Virus record (IMG/VR): IMGVR_UViG_3300033183_000180
Span: 1-23,495 of that record
Origin: a virus
Direction: 5' to 3' (one strand)
DNA: 23,495 bases
Under the pieces are notes generated by a model. The model saw nothing but the letters and a program-made list of their open reading frames with translations. It was not told the DNA's origin and made no database searches. Both the position numbers and the translations under genes were made by a program. Each line of letters opens with the position of its first letter. Within the stretch, counting starts at the first letter, position 1. Below, in pieces: positions 2,151 to 19,644 of this stretch.

Positions 2151-2470
2151 ATCGTAACCGCTTTGATTGTTGTATACTGATCAATCGTGGAATCAAACTT
2201 GTCGTTGATGCGAAACTTTTCACCCGATGATTCAAGTTCCAACACATCACTCAAAAGGATTTGATTTGCTGCCTTTTCCCGCAGTATTATTTCAATTGAG
2301 GTGCGTTGCTCCCTGATTCCGTTTTCCTGCCTTATTTCGCCTGAATTTTCCTTGTATGCACACCAAAAGGTATGCACAATGGTTTCGGAACTTGTAAAGC
2401 CACCGAATCCATCTGCGGTTTTAGTCAATCGCAGTATTTTGATCCTTTTATTTAACCGCCCTGCATCCAT
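2147..2470 (-). CDS. Head closure / head-tail joining protein (SPP1 gp16 / PF05521-like)
   Basis: 107 residues. The start MDAGRLNKRIKILRL, then DGFGGFTSSE, WCAYKENSGEIR and a closing IND...DQYTTIKAV fit the phage head-tail joining family, a small beta-barrel stopper that closes the portal after packaging. The G-R-L-x-x-R-I motif at the N-terminus followed by D-G-x-G-G is typical. The ATG at 2470 overlaps the previous stop (TAATG), and the end overlaps the gp10-like gene by 4 nt, so expression is probably coupled. Confidence 0.85.
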   Translation of the reverse strand: MDAGRLNKRIKILRLTKTADGFGGFTSSETIVHTFWCAYKENSGEIRQENGIREQRTSIEIILREKAANQILLSDVLELESSGEKFRINDKFDSTIDQYTTIKAVTI

Positions 2471-2982
2471 TACACAAACATTGATTTGTAAGATGAAAGA
2501 ATTGTTTTAGCACTCGTTGGAATCAAATGCACACTTGATCCTTCAATGAAATCCGCACGATTGTCGTAATACGTTGAAATTGTTTGCAACATTGCTTGTT
2601 TCATTAATGCGTTGTTGATGCCACTTGTGATGTAGGTGATTTTCACCTTTTCCGCAGCACCTCCATCCAATTCAATGGTTTCACTATCCAAACCGAGTAT
2701 TGTGTACGTTGCAGCTTCATCATTGATCGTAACTGATTCAATGGATGCCACTGGAGCAAAAGGAATATCAATCAACCCCGTTGTTGTGTAATCCAAATAA
2801 TACGTTCTATTTTTCGCAACAATATCCCTTGAAATGTAATTCTCACACCACAAACGTGCGGTTTCAATCATCAATCCAATCAACGTATCATCAGCAGATG
2901 TATCAATCCTTGCGAAATCCTTCACATCCTGAATGGTGATGATTTCACTTCCAGTTGTGGAATTTATTTTGATTTGCCTCAT
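2470..2982 (-). CDS. Head-tail connector / adaptor, gp6-like
   Basis: 170 residues. The segment DVKDFARIDTSADDTLIGLM and then ARLWCENYISRDI is the classic start of gp6-type connector proteins (PF05135 and relatives), which form the ring below the portal. The middle part (APVASIESVTINDEAATY) is an inserted beta domain, and the C-terminus returns to helices (ALMKQAMLQTISTYYDNRADF), also usual. It is the first neck gene after the accessory cassette and terminator at 3005-3034. It therefore needs its own promoter or antitermination; no convincing promoter was seen in 2983-3004. Confidence 0.85.
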   Translation of the reverse strand: MRQIKINSTTGSEIITIQDVKDFARIDTSADDTLIGLMIETARLWCENYISRDIVAKNRTYYLDYTTTGLIDIPFAPVASIESVTINDEAATYTILGLDSETIELDGGAAEKVKITYITSGINNALMKQAMLQTISTYYDNRADFIEGSSVHLIPTSAKTILSSYKSMFV

Positions 2983-3004
2983 TGCATTTATTTTGTGTAA
3001 AGTT

Positions 3005-3034
3005 AAAAAAAAAGAGGCACATCAATTGTGCCTC
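3005..3034 (-). terminator. Intrinsic terminator after the nuclease-like gene
   Basis: Read on the minus strand, a perfect 8-bp stem GAGGCACA/TGTGCCTC (3034-3027 with 3021-3014) and a 5-nt loop are followed by nine T residues (3013-3005). It lies 31 nt after the stop of the 3065-3442 gene and closes the accessory cassette. Confidence 0.88.
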
Positions 3035-3064
3035 CTTCCAAAGTTGAAACAGAAAAAATATCCC

Positions 3065-3442
3065 TCACAGAATATGAGCAAAGGTATTGAAATAATCCTT
3101 GTATCTTCCTGTTGTTGATAACCTGATTGATTTTTGCTCTTTATTTTTAATTACATAAAAACCCTGATCCCTTGCAACGTAGATGGCAAAGTAATCAACC
3201 AAATTCATTGGATAAGATTTTGCATCAGCACGTAAAACGCACTGCACATCACCCCTACTTATTTTATCCGTTCGATCCTTTGTAATTGATTTTACTTGAA
3301 TTTTGAAAAGTGTGCCATCCTTTTCCAAAATAAGATCATAAGCGGATGCATCGAGCATTGGCATTGATACATTGAAACCCCACTCCATTGCCTGAATGGC
3401 AAATTTATATTCCGCAAAACATCCAAATTGATTGGCATCCAC
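3065..3442 (-). CDS. PD-(D/E)XK nuclease-like protein, group I intron endonuclease (PDDEXK_5) type
   Basis: 125 residues. The N-terminal helix FGCFAEYKFAIQAMEWGFNV places E11, and AYDLILEKDGTLFKIQVKS places D36, Q49 and K51, giving the E...D...(Q)xK pattern of the PD-(D/E)XK fold; VDYFAIY is the next core strand. The spacing matches the small intron-endonuclease-like family often found alone in phages and bacteria. A nuclease or DNA-binding role is inferred. The start is a GTG (3442), with an in-frame TAG four codons upstream. It lies only 14 nt below the preceding stem, so read-through of that terminator or an unseen promoter must supply mRNA. It is an accessory gene inside the head operon. 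Confidence 0.75.
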   Translation of the reverse strand: MDANQFGCFAEYKFAIQAMEWGFNVSMPMLDASAYDLILEKDGTLFKIQVKSITKDRTDKISRGDVQCVLRADAKSYPMNLVDYFAIYVARDQGFYVIKNKEQKSIRLSTTGRYKDYFNTFAHIL

Positions 3443-3455
3443 GAAATAAAACTAC

Positions 3456-3485
3456 AAAAAAAAAGGCAACCAAAACGATTGCCTT
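3456..3485 (-). terminator. Intrinsic terminator within the accessory cassette
   Basis: On the minus strand, stem AAGGCAA/TTGCCTT (3485-3479 with 3469-3463) and a 9-nt loop precede nine T residues (3464-3456). It follows the 45-residue gene (stop at 3519) and directly precedes the GTG start of the nuclease-like gene, so it may act as a partial terminator or attenuator. Confidence 0.75.
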
Positions 3486-3518
3486 CTCCTCTCTTAAACA
3501 AACTATGAAAAAACACGC

Positions 3519-3656
3519 TCAATTTCGAGCGATTTTCTTTTCCAATTCCCCAAGTTCCTTCAAAACCATCAGTTGTTTTGATAATGGCAACTTGTTGAAT
3601 TCCTTTGCATCCAATAATTGCAAATATCTTTTATAATCTGCACCCAAATAATTCAT
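3519..3656 (-). CDS. Small 45-residue charged helical protein
   Basis: Found by reading the gap. ATG at 3656-3654, stop TGA at 3521-3519. The sequence starts MNYLGADYKRYLQLLDAKEF and ends LKELGELEKKIARN. It is almost certainly all-helical, with a C-terminal amphipathic, coiled-coil-like part (LMVLKELGELEKKI) and no membrane segment. Its ATG overlaps the stop of the upstream gene as TAATG, and AGAGGGG lies a few bases upstream. No function recognised. It is the last gene before the terminator at 3456-3485. Confidence 0.65.
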   Translation of the reverse strand: MNYLGADYKRYLQLLDAKEFNKLPLSKQLMVLKELGELEKKIARN

Positions 3657-3805
3657 TATTCCCCTCTGTTTAACATCATTGTGAATCCAATGAGGATCAA
3701 AAAAATCCCCGTAAATATATCATCGAAAAGGTAAATTGAACGTGCGCCAATCCCAAAGAAAAGCCACCCCAATAATCCCTTGTTGATTTGTTTTGGTGCG
3801 CTCAT
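3656..3805 (-). CDS. Small 49-residue membrane protein
   Basis: Found by reading the gap. ATG at 3805-3803, stop TAA at 3658-3656. It begins MSAPKQINKGLLGWLFFGIG, and has two short hydrophobic stretches (about 11-20 and 29-43, IFTGIFLILIGFTMM) separated by ARSIYLFDD, so a two-pass hairpin is likely. It overlaps the upstream gene by 4 nt and the downstream gene by 1 nt, which supports translation. Function unknown; holin-like or superinfection roles are only possibilities. Confidence 0.65.
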   Translation of the reverse strand: MSAPKQINKGLLGWLFFGIGARSIYLFDDIFTGIFLILIGFTMMLNRGE

Positions 3806-3918
3806 AGTAACATCCATTTATCTGCCAATGCACATAAGTACACAAACCCACTCATCAATCCAAATGCTGCAAAATATATGATGCAGTCAAAAATAAAGTT
3901 TTCAATTTTCCGTTTCAT
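3802..3918 (-). CDS. Small 38-residue membrane protein
   Basis: Found by reading the gap. ATG at 3918-3916, stop TGA at 3804-3802 inside an ATGA overlap with the next gene. The protein (MKRKIENFIFDCIIYFAAFG, then a second half LMSGFVYLCALADKW) has a basic start and one long hydrophobic span at about 8-31, i.e. a single-pass inner-membrane peptide with two cysteines. No family recognised. Confidence 0.6.
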   Translation of the reverse strand: MKRKIENFIFDCIIYFAAFGLMSGFVYLCALADKWMLL

Positions 3919-3929
3919 TGTTTCAAGTT

Positions 3930-4133
3930 TTAAATCAATCCCAATTGTTTGTCCAATTGTTTTTTGTTGTAATCCAATATGTATTGATTTGCGCTTTTCA
4001 ATACGTTTTCAGCATTAGGAATTCTATTGGCTTGTGCGGTTGAATATATTTCATCAACGCTTAAATCCTTTAAGAATTTAACGCACTTCGCTTTTTTATC
4101 CCTTGCATCCTCAATGTTTTTAAAATGTATCAT
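3930..4133 (-). CDS. Unknown 67-residue soluble protein
   Basis: Not recognised. Lys- and Asp-rich, predicted helical (MIHFKNIEDARDKKAKCVKF; LSVDEIYSTAQANRI; ENVLKSANQYILDYNKKQLD). The middle part could be a small helix-turn-helix-like bundle, but no clear recognition helix is seen. It is the second gene of the cassette, 10 nt below the first and 11 nt above the third. ATG at 4133 is the first in frame. Confidence 0.7.
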   Translation of the reverse strand: MIHFKNIEDARDKKAKCVKFLKDLSVDEIYSTAQANRIPNAENVLKSANQYILDYNKKQLDKQLGLI

Positions 4134-4143
4134 TTCGTTTGTT

Positions 4144-4296
4144 TTAAAGATTCAATGCCTCCTCGTATGAAATATAAATTCCTTTTTCCTCAAGCATCAT
4201 CATTGCCATTCTTGCGAATGTATGCTTTTGCAATCCTTGTGAAAGTTGGATCATTTCGTTTCTCAATCTGTTGTCGGTGATATCTTGAATTTTCAT
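4144..4296 (-). CDS. Unknown 50-residue protein, first gene of the accessory cassette
   Basis: Not recognised. From ATG 4296 it reads MKIQDITDNRLRNEMIQLSQ and continues with a Met-rich helix (FARMAMMMLEEKGIYISYEE). The frame is open to an ATG at 4347, but that would start inside the promoter elements at 4318-4348, so the internal ATG is preferred. It lies about 22 nt below the -7 box, a sensible leader length. The C-terminal half has the look of a small DNA- or protein-binding helix pair, without a firm match. Confidence 0.7.
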   Translation of the reverse strand: MKIQDITDNRLRNEMIQLSQGLQKHTFARMAMMMLEEKGIYISYEEALNL

Positions 4297-4317
4297 AATT
4301 GTTTCGTTTTGATGGTA

Positions 4318-4348
4318 CAAATATAGGAAAAAATTTTTTCCCTCCAAA
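4318..4348 (-). promoter_or_regulatory. Bacteroidota-type promoter with a perfect palindrome in its spacer
   Basis: On the minus strand TTTG (4348-4345), a 19-nt spacer and TATATTTG (4325-4318) match the Bacteroidota sigma consensus TTTG-N19-TAnnTTTG. The spacer holds the perfect 16-bp palindrome GGAAAAAATTTTTTCC (4326-4341), placed where a repressor would block polymerase. It drives the 4144-4296 gene and the cassette below. Confidence 0.75.
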
Positions 4349-4367
4349 CAAAATCAAAAAAAAATGC

Positions 4368-4404
4368 AAAAAAAAAGAGGTGAACGAATATGCTCACCCC
4401 TTTT
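4368..4404 (-). terminator. Intrinsic terminator after the major capsid gene
   Basis: On the minus strand an 11-bp stem (4404-4394 with 4383-4373, one G-U pair) around a 10-nt loop is followed by a run of T residues to 4368. It lies 23 nt after the capsid stop and separates the head operon from the cassette promoter at 4318-4348. Confidence 0.85.
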
Positions 4405-4426
4405 GTTGGTTGTGTTGCCCTACTTA

Positions 4427-5620
4427 TTAGGGAGTTTCAAGTGCAGTTTTTGCAGTTGAGAATGTACCATTCACGAATGCATTTGGCAAGTAGTTTGTCA
4501 ATGCGATTCTTTCAGATACACGAACAGTAACAAAGCCATCACGTACGTTTGTGCCATCTTCACGGAAGAATTCAACACCAACGTTATCACGCACCCAAAG
4601 TTGAGTTCCAACACCAAAGTTCCCTGCAAGGAAAGTTCCCGCAGTGATTGCAGTGTTGATCACAACTGGCACACCCATAAAGGCGGGTTGTAAACCTGCA
4701 TAAACTTGATCCTTCAAGTAGCTGTTGTTGCTATCTTTTAACAATAGGATTTTGTGGAAATCAGTTGGATTCAACATAATGTAATCCGCTTGATATTCAC
4801 TCAATGCCAATTGGTTTAATGTAGCAACAAGCACATCAAATTCATTCGCTGATTCTACGCTTTGATAGAATGCACCGCTTGAAGTTGTATCAAAATCAGC
4901 AGCATCGGTGATGATACCTGAAAGGTTTGGCGCAGTGCCATTACCTGAAAGGATTTGAGTATCCTCAACTGAAAGCAGTTTTTCAGGCGCACGTGCTGAA
5001 AGGTATGAAGTAAGTTGTGGAGTATCCGCCAACATTTCCTCACTGATGCGGAAATACGTTCCGATTTTACGAACGTTTGCATCAGATGCAGTCATATCAA
5101 AATCAGATTGTGCAAGTGTAGCACCTTCCGCTTTTGGAGCAGCACCATTTGTATATCCTGATTCTTTCACAAAACGTACAACATCAGATGAAGTTGATCC
5201 TTGTGGAATCAAGTTTCTCACGTGAGTTGAACGAGTTGGATCGAATTTGTATCCTGCAACTCTATCAGCGGGAATAACCTCACCAGTGAAATCAGCTGAA
5301 ACACTCATATCCGCTTTTACCTCGAATGATGCTGAACGTGCATTTCCTTTTGCAATTGCTTCAATAGCACCATCATTGATGGCATTTGTTAAAGCACCTT
5401 TGAAAGAAACATCTTGTTTTGCTTCAAAGTGTTTTTTGTTTGCAACTTCCATTGCATCAAAACGCTCGTTAAATTGTGCAGTAAGGTTGTTGATTTCGCT
5501 TTTTAGCATTTCATCCGCTTTTCCAGTTGCAGAATCAATTGCTTGACCTTGCGCTTTTTCCAATTTGGCATCGATTAAATCACCAAGTTGATCCAATTGC
5601 GCTTTTACATTTTCATTCAT
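4427..5620 (-). CDS. Major capsid protein, HK97 fold
   Basis: 397 residues, the normal size for HK97-type capsids. Residues 1-65 form a charged coiled coil (QLGDLIDAKLEKAQGQAIDS; LTAQFNERFDAMEVA), the scaffolding delta domain usually removed by the prohead protease. The mature-type part includes SADFTGEVIPADRVAGYKFD, AEGATLAQSDFDMTASDANV, RISEEMLADTPQLTSYLSAR and a C-terminus with GVEFFREDGTNVRDGFVTVR and ERIALTNY, all typical of PF05065. It forms the icosahedral shell. The leader just upstream of ATG 5620 is A-rich without a Shine-Dalgarno. It is followed by a strong terminator, as expected for the most abundant late product. Confidence 0.95.
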   Translation of the reverse strand: MNENVKAQLDQLGDLIDAKLEKAQGQAIDSATGKADEMLKSEINNLTAQFNERFDAMEVANKKHFEAKQDVSFKGALTNAINDGAIEAIAKGNARSASFEVKADMSVSADFTGEVIPADRVAGYKFDPTRSTHVRNLIPQGSTSSDVVRFVKESGYTNGAAPKAEGATLAQSDFDMTASDANVRKIGTYFRISEEMLADTPQLTSYLSARAPEKLLSVEDTQILSGNGTAPNLSGIITDAADFDTTSSGAFYQSVESANEFDVLVATLNQLALSEYQADYIMLNPTDFHKILLLKDSNNSYLKDQVYAGLQPAFMGVPVVINTAITAGTFLAGNFGVGTQLWVRDNVGVEFFREDGTNVRDGFVTVRVSERIALTNYLPNAFVNGTFSTAKTALETP

Positions 5621-12723: not shown

Positions 12724-12750
12724 AAAAAAAAAGCCATCAAATAGATGGCT
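12724..12750 (-). terminator. Intrinsic terminator after the C5 methyltransferase gene
   Basis: On the minus strand, a perfect 7-bp stem AGCCATC/GATGGCT (12750-12744 with 12738-12732) with a 5-nt loop precedes nine T residues (12732-12724). The first stem base is within the methyltransferase stop codon. It separates the methylation genes from the terminase operon. Confidence 0.85.
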
Positions 12751-13373
12751 CAACTTTTCAATACTTCAATGCACAATTGTTCAGGTATTTTACTCCTATT
12801 ATAATTTCCTTTTAATCCTTGCGTTCCCGTTTTACTGCCACGAGGTGCGGATTCGTGATGGCAATTTTTATTTCCATTATGGCATTCGGGTTTTGGTTGC
12901 CAACCATCGGGATTCAAAAGTGAACGGAGGTTGTTTGTCCAAATATCCGTTGGCTTTGCACGTTTATCACCATAGGTGCAATACCAAACAGTTGCGCGAG
13001 GTAAACCAATCATAAATGGTTGCTTCCTTAATAATCCACGAGGATTTTCAATATACCATTTTTTTGGTTTTAATTCCTTAATGATTTCAATTGTTTTCAT
13101 TACAATCAAATCACTTTTTTTGGCAAAATCTGAAAGTTCTTTTCCAATTGGTCGATGATGTGATATTGCTGCAATGGAATAAGTTGTGCAAGGAGGTGAT
13201 GCCCAAATTATATCAGGTTGAAAAGGAACTTTGGAAATATCAAAATCCAATACATCAACAACATAATCAATACCATCAAAGTCATTGATATCACTACTAA
13301 AAACATTGAAACCCAATTTTTCAGATGCTTTTCCAACGCTTCGACTTCCTGCAAATAATTCAAGTACATTCAT
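12750..13373 (-). CDS. Short DNA (cytosine-5) methyltransferase
   Basis: 207 residues. Motif I LELFAGSRSVGKASEKLG (3-20) binds AdoMet, motif IV ASPPCTTYS carries the C62 nucleophile, and motif VI YIENPRG contains E109. The C-terminus RSKIPEQLCIEVL resembles the closing motif of the family. It is shorter than the usual 300-400 residues; the target-recognition part is reduced to a Cys/His-rich stretch (KPECHNGNKNCHHES), as in compact phage enzymes. It would methylate cytosine, perhaps to evade host restriction; specificity is unknown. It lies between two terminators, and no clear promoter was found in the 58-nt gap upstream. Confidence 0.85.
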   Translation of the reverse strand: MNVLELFAGSRSVGKASEKLGFNVFSSDINDFDGIDYVVDVLDFDISKVPFQPDIIWASPPCTTYSIAAISHHRPIGKELSDFAKKSDLIVMKTIEIIKELKPKKWYIENPRGLLRKQPFMIGLPRATVWYCTYGDKRAKPTDIWTNNLRSLLNPDGWQPKPECHNGNKNCHHESAPRGSKTGTQGLKGNYNRSKIPEQLCIEVLKS

Positions 13374-13828: not shown

Positions 13829-14116
13829 CTAATCAATCAATTCAACAATTCCAAATTTATCTTTGAATTTACCCTTTAAAACTTCACCAACGTAATTTTC
13901 ACTTTTGCCAAGTGCAAATGATGCCTCTTGTTTATTGAGGAAGGTTTTGTTTAAAGATTTCACAAATACTTTATTAAATATGCGCTTTGGCTTTTGCTCC
14001 TTTTTAATTACAACACCAAGTATTTCATTTATCCTATCTTGACAATACTTTTTTGTTTTTGGGTTTTGTGCTTTACTTTTCCAATCCTCATAATATCCGA
14101 TCATATTTTTTCCCAT
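13829..14116 (-). CDS. Unknown 95-residue basic protein with a NUMOD-like helix-turn-helix segment
   Basis: No firm family match. The N-terminal part is basic and helical (IGYYEDWKSKAQNPKTKKY). The C-terminal part, FVKSLNKTFLNKQEASFALG then KSENYVGEVLKGKFKDKFG, looks like the small NUMOD/HTH-type modules that put an N-(K/R)-x-E-A-S-x-x-L-G-K-S helix pair on DNA. It overlaps the ParB-methyltransferase by 29 nt; an ATG at 14104 would shorten the overlap to 17 nt. A DNA-contacting helper of the methyltransferase is an inference from position and basic charge only. Confidence 0.65.
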   Translation of the reverse strand: MGKNMIGYYEDWKSKAQNPKTKKYCQDRINEILGVVIKKEQKPKRIFNKVFVKSLNKTFLNKQEASFALGKSENYVGEVLKGKFKDKFGIVELID

Positions 14117-15278
14117 TTATTCTGATTTTTAAGTTTTCATCTAAATTCAACATTCTATCAATTATCACTTGACAATACTTTGGATCAAGTTCCATTCCAT
14201 AGCATACACGATCAAGTTGATGTGCTGCAATCATTGTTGATCCTCCACCCAAAAAAGCATCATAAACTATTTGATTTTTTTTAGATGAATTTTTTAACGC
14301 TTTTTCAGGCAATTCAATTGGCTTTTGTGTAGGATGAAACTTATTTTTTAAATCCTTTTTTAATTCCCACACTGATTTTTCATCAGATGCACCAAACCAT
14401 TGCGGTGATTTACCTTTTTTGAAAGCATAAATACATGGCTCAAAATTAGGGATGTATTGGCTCATAAATGCTCCTAATCCGCTCTTGACTTTATACCAAC
14501 ATATCACTGCCCTCACAGTTAAATTCAATTGTGAAAATGATGAAAAAGTTTCTGTTGATTTATTTGTTGAATACCATATATAAAATGCAGCGTGATCGTG
14601 AGTAAATATATCAGCATTTTGAAGTGAATCCCTAAATAGGTTTGTTAAATCATCACCCTCAAGTTTATCATTTTTGATGCCATCACGTTTTTTTGCATTA
14701 TGCCCACCCTCATAAGAAACACCATAAGGAGGATCGGTAAAAACCATATCTGCTTTTTTACCATCCATAAGTTTTGCAACCTGATCCGAATCCGTACTAT
14801 CACCACAAAGCAATCGATGGTTTCCGATTTCAATCAAATCACCCAATACAACATCAACCTTTAAATCATCTGGCTCATCATAATCATCCTCCTCCGCTTC
14901 GGGATTATCTTCAAACATATCAGGCAAATCCAAACCCCAATCCTCCAAATCATTCGGATTCCATTCGTTTGCCAATATATCCCAATCCCATTCCCCAAAG
15001 CCAACATTGTCCTTGATGATGAATTCTTTTTTCTTTTCATCACTCCATCCAGTTGCTTCATCAATCCAAACTTCAAACAATCCCGCACTTTTACACGCTT
15101 TGAGGCGCATATTGCCACCCAATACAACCATATTCTCATCCACAATGATTGGTCGCTTTTCAAGCATTTCAGGAAATTCCTTGATTGATTTTACTAACTT
15201 TTTAAATTTTGAATCCTTTACAAATCGTGGATTGTCGGGATTCGGTTTGATTGATGCGATGTTTACTTTACGCTTCAT
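14088..15278 (-). CDS. ParB-domain / DNA methyltransferase fusion (DPPY, N6-adenine or N4-cytosine type)
   Basis: 396 residues. Residues 1-115 are a ParB/Srx-like domain (NPDNPRFV; VVLGGNMRLKACKSAG; FIIKDNVGFGEWDWD). An acidic linker (EDNPEAEEDDYDEPDD) joins it to a methyltransferase: LCGDSTD, motif IV TDPPYGVSYE (DPPY 182-185), HPTQKP (315-320) and motif I DAFLGGGSTMIAA (FLGGGST 342-348), then GMELDP. Motif IV before motif I marks the beta-type order. Such fusions are common in phages and modify DNA amino groups; the exact base and site cannot be read. Its start overlaps the 56-residue membrane gene by 11 nt. Confidence 0.92.
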   Translation of the reverse strand: MKRKVNIASIKPNPDNPRFVKDSKFKKLVKSIKEFPEMLEKRPIIVDENMVVLGGNMRLKACKSAGLFEVWIDEATGWSDEKKKEFIIKDNVGFGEWDWDILANEWNPNDLEDWGLDLPDMFEDNPEAEEDDYDEPDDLKVDVVLGDLIEIGNHRLLCGDSTDSDQVAKLMDGKKADMVFTDPPYGVSYEGGHNAKKRDGIKNDKLEGDDLTNLFRDSLQNADIFTHDHAAFYIWYSTNKSTETFSSFSQLNLTVRAVICWYKVKSGLGAFMSQYIPNFEPCIYAFKKGKSPQWFGASDEKSVWELKKDLKNKFHPTQKPIELPEKALKNSSKKNQIVYDAFLGGGSTMIAAHQLDRVCYGMELDPKYCQVIIDRMLNLDENLKIRINGKKYDRIL

Positions 15279-15439: not shown

Positions 15440-15856
15440 TTAAAAAATTACTATCATTGAATCGTGCATTCCCGCCTTGTTTGTTACAAATTTACCAAAA
15501 GTATTGATACCTTCAAATTTTACCCTTCCTTTTAAAAATCTTATTTCTTTTTTATTAGGTAAAATAAAATCGTGAAATAAAACAGTTGATGTTGAAACTG
15601 GCAACAACATCACACAAGTTTTCCCTTTTTTACTTTCATCAATTGCTTTTTTAACAAATGCATCTTTCAATTTTCGTGAATACGGAGGGTTTATGTAGTT
15701 GCATTTACCCCAATCAATATCCAAACCACTCCATTTTGATATATCGTGATTCAAAGGACAAGGATCGAAATCAAAATTAAATTCATTGTTCAATTCATCA
15801 TATAACCAATCAGGAGTTTTCCAATCATCTTTGTGTTCTAAATTTATATTTTTCAT
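15440..15856 (-). CDS. Phage N6-adenine methyltransferase (Dam-like, PF05869 type)
   Basis: 138 residues. WKTPDWLYDELNNEFNFDFD with PCPLN, the catalytic NPPYS (motif IV), ESKKGKTCVMLLPVSTST, FLKGRVKFEG and the ending AGMHDSMIVIF follow the phage Dam family step by step. Members methylate adenine, often in GATC. It is slightly shorter than most (about 150-180) but keeps both termini. It overlaps the upstream 84-residue gene by 32 nt. A CAAATATA string at 15880-15887 could be a -7 box read on the minus strand, but no -33 element is present at the right distance. Confidence 0.9.
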   Translation of the reverse strand: MKNINLEHKDDWKTPDWLYDELNNEFNFDFDPCPLNHDISKWSGLDIDWGKCNYINPPYSRKLKDAFVKKAIDESKKGKTCVMLLPVSTSTVLFHDFILPNKKEIRFLKGRVKFEGINTFGKFVTNKAGMHDSMIVIF

Positions 15857-18233: not shown

Positions 18234-18749
18234 TTAAAATTTGGATTTCAAATATATAATTTCATCCATTGTGAGCATATCGTATGGATGCACCACGTAA
18301 GACAATACACGAGTATATTTCAACCTCCGCTCATCAAATACCATCCCATTTGTTGAGAATCCTTTGAATTCAAAACGCTTTTCATCACCTTGAAAAAAGG
18401 CAAATATATCAACATCACTTTTTGAATATTCAGGAATCATCATTGGATTTCGGATATTGCGTGAGCATTTTACATCAACACTCCATCCATTCCACGTGGC
18501 ATCGTATTTGTCTGTTCCTTTTCTCTTTGAATCATTGTTCACACTAAAATCAGGAAACAAATTCATTTCCCTGCAAAATATGTATTCCGCAGCAAAACCC
18601 GCATAATTGAGTTCTAAGCCACTTTTTTTGTTCACAGTACCCAAACCATCAATGCCACTGCGTTCCTTGTTTATTTGCCTTTGTTTTGCGTGAAAACGTA
18701 TCAAATCACATTCCCACTCATCCAAAAAATATGTTTTATTCTTTTGCAT
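18234..18749 (-). CDS. PD-(D/E)XK nuclease-like protein
   Basis: 171 residues from ATG 18749 (an in-frame TTG one codon earlier also exists). The N-terminal helices are charged. NYAGFAAEYIFCREM puts E55 in the first core helix, and GTDKYDATWNGWSVDVKCS gives D83 and D92-V-K94, the D...(D/E)xK triad of the nuclease fold; FAFFQGDEKRFEFKGF is a later core strand. The protein family is not recognised beyond the fold. In the replication operon, between initiator and primase-helicase, a resolvase or recombination-type nuclease is plausible. It overlaps the initiator end by 14 nt. Confidence 0.7.
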   Translation of the reverse strand: MQKNKTYFLDEWECDLIRFHAKQRQINKERSGIDGLGTVNKKSGLELNYAGFAAEYIFCREMNLFPDFSVNNDSKRKGTDKYDATWNGWSVDVKCSRNIRNPMMIPEYSKSDVDIFAFFQGDEKRFEFKGFSTNGMVFDERRLKYTRVLSYVVHPYDMLTMDEIIYLKSKF

Positions 18750-19644
18750 CAAGATATTTTTTCAAATTTTCGTATTCCGTTGTGCCAAGTTTGTACACCA
18801 ATGCAAAATCATCCAACTCCGCATTTTTAGTGATTGCTCCAATCATTGGTTTTCCCGCAGGATCGTTGTATTTGTAGAACTTGATGAGGTTTGGGATCAT
18901 CTTGTATGCTTGTGGCTTTTGTGATTTTTGCCCATCCATAAAGCGGTGAATGTACAAAATGCCATTTTTATCCTTGTTGCGCAGTTTCAAAAGTGAAAGG
19001 AAATTGCCACTCCAAAATTGATCCTCACGCATTTTTTTTGCCATTTGATACACCTCACGCAAATCGTATCCATCAATACGCTCAACACGCTCCAAGCATT
19101 CCGCCCACTTTAATTTTTGCGCATCGGTTGTTGGTTGATATTTTTTTGGAAACAATGAAATGAAGTGTTCCAGTGCGGTTTTCACACTTTGTGGGATATT
19201 ACTTTTATTATTATGATATTGTACATTGTCTTGTAAATGATCTTGTATATTATTATTATATATGTTATATATATTACTTTGGTGCGGATTTCCCGCAGCG
19301 GTTTTTTCCGCAGCGGTTTTTCCCGTTGCGGTTTTTTCCGCAATGGTTGATGGCACACACATCCTGAAATTGTATCCCGCAAATTTTCCGTTTTTACGCA
19401 CCGATTCACGTACTAAAAATCCAAAGGATTCCAGTTCCTTGATCCTTGAATTGATGGCATCTTTTCCATCCTTGAAATGCCCTCCAATGAATGCCATTGT
19501 GATATCGTGATTTGAATCGTGTGAAAATAGCCAAGCATACAATCCTGATGCTGCCATTGTGATTCCCTTTTGCCTAAATATAGCCAAAGGAATGATTGTG
19601 TACTGATCGAAATGATCAGGTTTGTAAATTTTGTTTATCTGCAT
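18736..19644 (-). CDS. Replication initiator-like protein with N-terminal winged helix
   Basis: 302 residues. Residues 1-95 form a phage/plasmid initiator-type winged helix (PLAIFRQKGITMAASGLYAW; GKDAINSRIKELESFGFLVR; KNGKFAGYNFRM). A low-complexity linker follows: a 5-residue repeat (x(E/G)KTA, 102-117) and an Asn/Ile-rich stretch (122-147). The C-terminal part (ALEHFISLFPKKYQPTTDAQ; EDQFWSGNFLSLLKLRNKD) resembles the helical end of helicase-loader or DnaD-like proteins. It probably opens the origin and loads the helicase. Its linker DNA contains the candidate origin described separately, the arrangement of lambda O. Confidence 0.75.
   Translation of the reverse strand: MQINKIYKPDHFDQYTIIPLAIFRQKGITMAASGLYAWLFSHDSNHDITMAFIGGHFKDGKDAINSRIKELESFGFLVRESVRKNGKFAGYNFRMCVPSTIAEKTATGKTAAEKTAAGNPHQSNIYNIYNNNIQDHLQDNVQYHNNKSNIPQSVKTALEHFISLFPKKYQPTTDAQKLKWAECLERVERIDGYDLREVYQMAKKMREDQFWSGNFLSLLKLRNKDKNGILYIHRFMDGQKSQKPQAYKMIPNLIKFYKYNDPAGKPMIGAITKNAELDDFALVYKLGTTEYENLKKYLDAKE
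19201..19346. other. Candidate replication origin inside the initiator gene
   Basis: Four direct 15-bp repeats (19293-19346) adjoin an 80-bp tract (19201-19280) with only 12 G/C bases. Iterons next to an AT-rich unwinding region within the initiator gene is the layout of the lambda origin in gene O. The same DNA encodes the initiator linker, so a purely protein-level cause of the repeats is the alternative. Confidence 0.5.
19293..19346. repeat. Four 15-bp direct repeats with internal dyads (iteron-like)
   Basis: Cores start at 19293, 19308, 19323 and 19338, exactly 15 bp apart. On the plus strand they read CCGCAGCGG, CCGCAGCGG, CCGTTGCGG and CCGCAATGG, joined by T5-T6 tracts. The first two cores are perfect CCGC-A-GCGG dyads. 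A half copy (GGTGCGG) precedes at 19281-19287. In the protein they give a five-residue repeat. Confidence 0.85.

Follow-up and report, generated by a model that had tools for sequence, protein, structure and literature searches.

The PD-(D/E)XK homing endonuclease I-Ssp6803I (PDB 2OST) is encoded in a group I intron. In phages, homing endonucleases also exist in free-standing form and in HEG islands, and such nucleases have been described beside structural genes and at the boundaries of gene exchange (Barth, Dunham and Seed 2023, PMC10448857). Marker exclusion has been reported for SegF of phage T4 and for the HNH enzymes of lactococcal Skunavirus phages (PMC12724721). A different kind of exchange was found in the Bacteroidetes 'Cryophage', where genes of metagenomic islands occupy fixed positions, in variants that can replace one another, within an otherwise stable genome from the environment (PMC7468147). 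It is with these systems, and with phage morons, that the locus described here is best compared.

The locus lies on an IMG/VR virus record of 23,495 bases, the whole of which was analysed and is called the window below. All genes of the locus are on the minus strand. Read in that direction, an HK97-type major capsid gene (4427..5620, minus strand; phrog_10, E=1.7e-53) is followed by a terminator (T1), a promoter, five tiny genes (g1 to g5), a second terminator (T2), a nuclease gene with a GTG start, a third terminator (T3) and a head-tail connector gene (2470..2982, minus strand; PF05135, phrog_442). A sequence-only reading of the window had listed these three terminators, the promoter, the five tiny genes and a nuclease of PD-(D/E)XK appearance, and each of them is present on the minus strand. 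The capsid protein is about 30% identical to those of named HK97-type phages, and among named phages the connector is matched in three Vibrio phages, at 27%. A nucleotide search of named phages gave no match, and no description of this capsid-connector locus was found in the open-access literature searched. On balance, we favour the view that this is a two-part accessory locus, in which a plug-in slot for small genes is combined with a homing-type, probably domesticated nuclease that would favour its own locus.

The nuclease (3065..3442, minus strand; 125 aa) matches the PF11645 family with 60.6 bits, against a cut-off of 26.1, and also matches phrog_5018; its PD-(D/E)XK character was thereby borne out. 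When a profile of 24 relatives was compared with the PDB, I-Ssp6803I was the only sequence match (E=6e-8), and the D and the QVK of the window's nuclease align with it. I-Ssp6803I is also the best Foldseek match of the structural model (pLDDT 90.3; E=3.3e-8, TM 0.78), followed by Hjc resolvases (E 4e-5 to 1e-3) and SPARDA nucleases. The residues E11, D36, Q49 and K51, an E/D/QxK pattern, are invariant in 66 distinct nuclease sequences. By family profile and predicted fold, this protein is related to I-Ssp6803I, with which it shares the PF11645 family, but it is free-standing: unlike I-Ssp6803I, it is encoded by a gene of its own between virion genes. An intron-encoded nuclease was considered and ruled out, with no Rfam match in 2400-5000 and with whole capsid and connector ORFs. 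The lack of an intron is compatible with the homing class, since free-standing forms are known (PMC10448857). Named phages contain only distant matches to this nuclease, below 40% identity. The gene is kept functional, because its median dN/dS (0.144) falls between those of the capsid (0.106) and the connector (0.176).

Relatives of the locus, all of them metagenomic contig fragments, were obtained by capsid and nuclease searches of IMG/VR, taking the best 80 loci per search. Among the matches listed, the nuclease lies between capsid and connector in 130 of 132 distinct junctions, a count that describes the sampled clades and not all phages with this capsid type. The two empty junctions (L224 and L225) keep both flanking genes but lack the block: the capsid stop codon is followed by one hairpin with T10, by TAACTTTA, and then by a small gene termed F2 and the connector. 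The same TAACTTTA stands before the connector in the window (2998..3005, minus strand), where it is a putative -7 box (P3). Most other clades carry the F2 gene (63-96 aa) behind the nuclease, where it overlaps or abuts the connector start, as in L030; the clade of the window lacks it.

A second home of the nuclease was found in loci that lack this capsid gene. There its neighbours are lysis genes on one side and an ERF gene on the other, a terminator usually stands immediately before it as well, and it shows about 50-53% identity to the nuclease of the window. Among the matches listed, 14 of 80 ERF loci contain it, and in several of the empty ERF sites a terminator is directly followed by the ERF promoter region. 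Both filled and empty alleles of the nuclease gene thus exist at each of two unrelated sites, and the terminator in front of the gene may travel with it.

Like the free-standing homing endonucleases of phages, the nuclease of the window adjoins essential structural genes at a place of gene exchange. Unlike in HEG islands, the nuclease belongs to another class and is nearly fixed, and a single nuclease is present instead of a bracketing pair, with one copy of this nuclease in 30 of 30 records; in addition, the most exchanged gene of the locus lies behind a promoter, several genes away from the nuclease. The likeness to Cryophage island genes lies in variants that are interchangeable at a fixed position, but what is exchanged at this locus is one tiny gene immediately behind a conserved promoter, and the nuclease at the distal end stays constant. 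As to morons, the locus resembles them, to judge from its sequence, in its own promoter and terminators and in its accessory genes placed between virion genes. In its strict sense, however, the term implies expression in a lysogen, of which a genome search with the capsid protein gave no sign. The sequence-only reading had proposed such a moron, that is, an independently controlled accessory block, and had suggested comparing the capsid-connector junction of related phages, where the same genes might have proved constant in all. The comparison supports the accessory block, whose content varies and which two relatives lack altogether. The moron reading survives in part: the block is separable and carries its own control signals, but the nuclease is close to a fixed component, and variation is confined to the tiny genes.

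Control signals were compared across 134 distinct capsid-to-nuclease slots from relatives. The intrinsic terminator T1 (4368..4404, minus strand; -14.5 kcal/mol) follows the capsid gene, T2 (3456..3492, minus strand; -11.0 kcal/mol) lies directly upstream of the nuclease and T3 (3005..3039, minus strand; -13.9 kcal/mol) separates nuclease and connector. The terminator-like sites are not due to chance, since six were observed where shuffled sequences gave an expectation of 0.9. In the slots of relatives, the capsid gene is followed by a stable hairpin and T-run in 134/134 cases (3/134 after shuffling), and such a structure stands before the nuclease in 130/134 (1/134 after shuffling); the counterpart of T3 is present in 26 of the 29 relatives without an F2 gene. 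At the lysis-ERF site of L265-L270, the hairpin in front of the nuclease (GTGGCAGCC...GGTTGTCAC) is similar to that of T2 in the window clade (GGCAATC...GGTTGCC, 3456-3485); different hairpins are present at the empty ERF sites.

The promoter of the small genes, P1 (4318..4348, minus strand), was recognised by its motif, TTTG-N19-TATATTTG, which is the promoter form known for Bacteroidota. The strict motif occurs within the first 230 nt of 61/134 slots, against 4.2 expected, and in 2/385 coding control windows; a sigma-70 scan did not detect P1. The palindrome noted earlier within the promoter is indeed present in the spacer (16 bp, 4326-4341), but a perfect palindrome is found in only 2/134 relatives. 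A role as a conserved operator is therefore ruled out, and the palindrome is probably incidental spacer sequence. Between the T-run of T2 and the GTG of the nuclease lies a putative -7 box, TAGTTTTA (P2; 3447..3454, minus strand). A TAnnTT[TA][AG] box is present near the nuclease start in 104/134 loci, compared with 24 in shuffles, and in most loci the start codon is located 5-29 nt behind the T-run. The nuclease mRNA is possibly leaderless.

The five tiny genes, all on the minus strand, are tightly packed. The first, g1 (4144..4296; 50 aa, family F7), occupies the exchanged position, called slot 1 below, and is absent or replaced in most relatives, while g2 (3930..4133; 67 aa) has no relative in the 134 slots and no family match. 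Judged from their sequences, g3 (3802..3918; 38 aa, family F6) has a single membrane segment and g4 (3656..3817; 53 aa, family F1) is a membrane protein; family F1 is the commonest partner upstream of the nuclease. The last, g5 (3519..3656; 45 aa, family F3), encodes a small soluble protein. Spacers of 10 nt (g1-g2) and 11 nt (g2-g3) and overlaps of 16 nt (g3/g4) and 1 nt (g4/g5) separate or join these genes. Pfam and PHROGs offered no usable family for any of g1-g5, so that the tiny proteins stay unrecognised, as they had been at first sight. Among 122 representative slot proteins of the relatives, thymidylate synthase, MazG and DUF3310 were recognisable, together with a few weak domain matches; by these sequence matches, the recognisable cargo is nucleotide-metabolism-like. 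Two slots (L095 and L101) measure 4.4-4.7 kb, compared with about 1 kb as usual, and the thymidylate synthase and MazG matches possibly lie within these long slots.

Diversity along the slot is sharply polar, being high at the promoter end and low at the nuclease end. The first gene after the promoter belongs to 72 families in the 134 loci (5.78 bits), and the gene adjoining the nuclease to 14 (2.23 bits). The same polarity is seen among close relatives, in 74 pairs of loci with a capsid synonymous difference below 0.15, the pair counts being phylogenetically non-independent. The first gene is of a different family in 54/74 pairs and the last gene in 0/74; the nuclease allele is strongly diverged in 3/74 and the connector in 0/74. 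Three loci (L129, L130 and L133) have three unrelated first genes, although their capsids are 99.6-99.8% and their nucleases 98.4-99.5% identical. Between L129 and L133, identity extends up to the start codon and resumes just before the start codon of the next gene, and L077 and L079 show the same start-codon-to-start-codon pattern. The idea that swap boundaries are gene-precise in all pairs was weakened by a strict count: 13/36 pairs had a left edge between -60 and +15 nt relative to the start codon, and for the right edge the figure was 21/36.

Exchange in slot 1 also reaches across clades: slot-1 genes are 83-96% identical between clades whose capsids are 68-77% identical, and a 92% identical copy of g1 of the window occupies slot 1 in a distant clade (L346). 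Members of one slot-1 family are also found close to the terminase gene of L348 and L353, in loci where this capsid and nuclease are both absent, so the pool of small genes is independent of the nuclease. In one pair (L013/L015), a membrane gene and the nuclease were replaced together between near-identical flanks. One contig of 35,483 bases (IMGVR_UViG_3300021959_000167; L003 and L006) contains the whole capsid-connector region twice, in diverged copies spaced about 27.4 kb apart, and may be a chimera assembled from two related phages.

According to the reading of a two-part locus, the small genes form an operon with its own promoter, the promoter-proximal position of which serves as the plug-in slot. 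There, an unrelated gene takes the place of the resident one, whereas the promoter, the small genes farther downstream and the genes for the virion remain unchanged. The swaps most likely result from homologous recombination of the ordinary kind, with the conserved promoter and leader providing homology at one end and the conserved next gene at the other; selection on the small genes would keep them. The nuclease is a unit of its own, set off by the flanking terminators and probably transcribed from a separate promoter box that directly follows the upstream T-run. It is most likely of the homing type, and we infer that it cuts target sites in co-infecting relatives, giving its own locus and the neighbouring genes a competitive benefit. 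Retention for that advantage would make it a domesticated nuclease. On the other hand, near-fixation, a single copy per record, purifying selection and the lack of noticeable decayed copies would be unusual for a homing gene that is purely selfish. A link between the nuclease and the slot-1 swaps may exist, but the swaps need not be nuclease-driven, because the nuclease stays 98-99.5% identical across them; homologous recombination with selection suffices. Nuclease-driven swapping as the sole cause of slot-1 change was thus found to be unsupported. The block is composite: in other phages, small genes from the pool are found with no such nuclease close by, and at its other site the nuclease has no tiny genes beside it. 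One may go further and speculate that marine Bacteroidota phages possess an integron-like platform, with a fixed promoter, a gene-precise slot fed from a shared pool and a nuclease that inserts itself directly behind terminators and drives or protects the exchange, but this version we consider unlikely.

The main rival to the two-part reading is that the nuclease is a core enzyme of the Holliday-junction resolvase type, which cuts branched DNA before or during packaging; its location, among the late head genes here and next to the ERF annealing protein in other phages, would then reflect work in recombination or packaging. A core enzyme would be expected to be near-universal, present in one copy per record and under purifying selection, as this nuclease is; its second home adjoins ERF, and its fold is also close to that of archaeal Hjc resolvases. 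Nevertheless, it is nearest to I-Ssp6803I rather than to Hjc in both sequence and fold, and the invariant QxK of its active site takes the place of the ExK motif of an Hjc-type enzyme, in line with a profile that matches I-Ssp6803I and no resolvase in the PDB. The phage already encodes a VRR-NUC protein that matches a Holliday-junction-resolvase family, and the absence of the nuclease from most ERF loci and from two capsid-connector junctions does not fit an enzyme of the core. We therefore regard the resolvase role as doubtful, while taking it more seriously than the remaining alternatives.

The block could also serve anti-defence or superinfection exclusion, the nuclease destroying host or rival DNA and the membrane genes blocking infection, and the variety in slot 1 would then record an arms race with hosts. 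Small, fast-changing genes that are swapped between clades, membrane proteins encoded in the operon and an independent promoter would all suit such a function. However, none of the 122 slot proteins matches PADLOC (0/122), a library of defence and not of anti-defence systems, and the cargo that can be recognised is thymidylate synthase, MazG and DUF3310; we find this explanation improbable. Still less probable is an ordinary recombination hotspot, a permissive gap between genes, flagged by terminators and promoters, in which non-essential genes collect and the nuclease would be an old passenger with no relation to them. It would account for the independent change of slot 1 and nuclease and for swap edges that lie within conserved leader and start regions, but a passenger would be expected to be lost often, and this one is retained under purifying selection in nearly every junction. 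A single conserved address at which environmental phages exchange small genes allows about 70 families of candidate host-interaction genes to be collected. The locus also contributes a PD-(D/E)XK, I-Ssp6803I-like member, nearly fixed at its place, to the group of free-standing nucleases that are suspected to direct gene exchange between phages, and makes it directly testable whether such a nuclease is selfish, competitive or a core enzyme.

The virus is a marine phage, and the form of its promoter suggests that it probably infects Bacteroidota. A search of 84,980 bacterial and archaeal genomes with the capsid protein found no relative, and hence no prophage or named host can be assigned. Elsewhere in the window, a possible second PD-(D/E)XK-like protein of 172 aa is encoded at 18234-18752 (minus strand), with a sub-threshold match to DUF5843. 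A Mu F-like head protein (PF04233; 6335-8308, minus strand) has a zinc-metallopeptidase-like HEFGH motif in its C-terminal half, a region with a weak Pfam match (E=0.003, below the cut-off). Three DNA methyltransferase-like genes, of the C5, ParB-N6/N4 and Dam types, are clustered at 12750-13373, 14088-15278 and 15440-15856 (minus strand).
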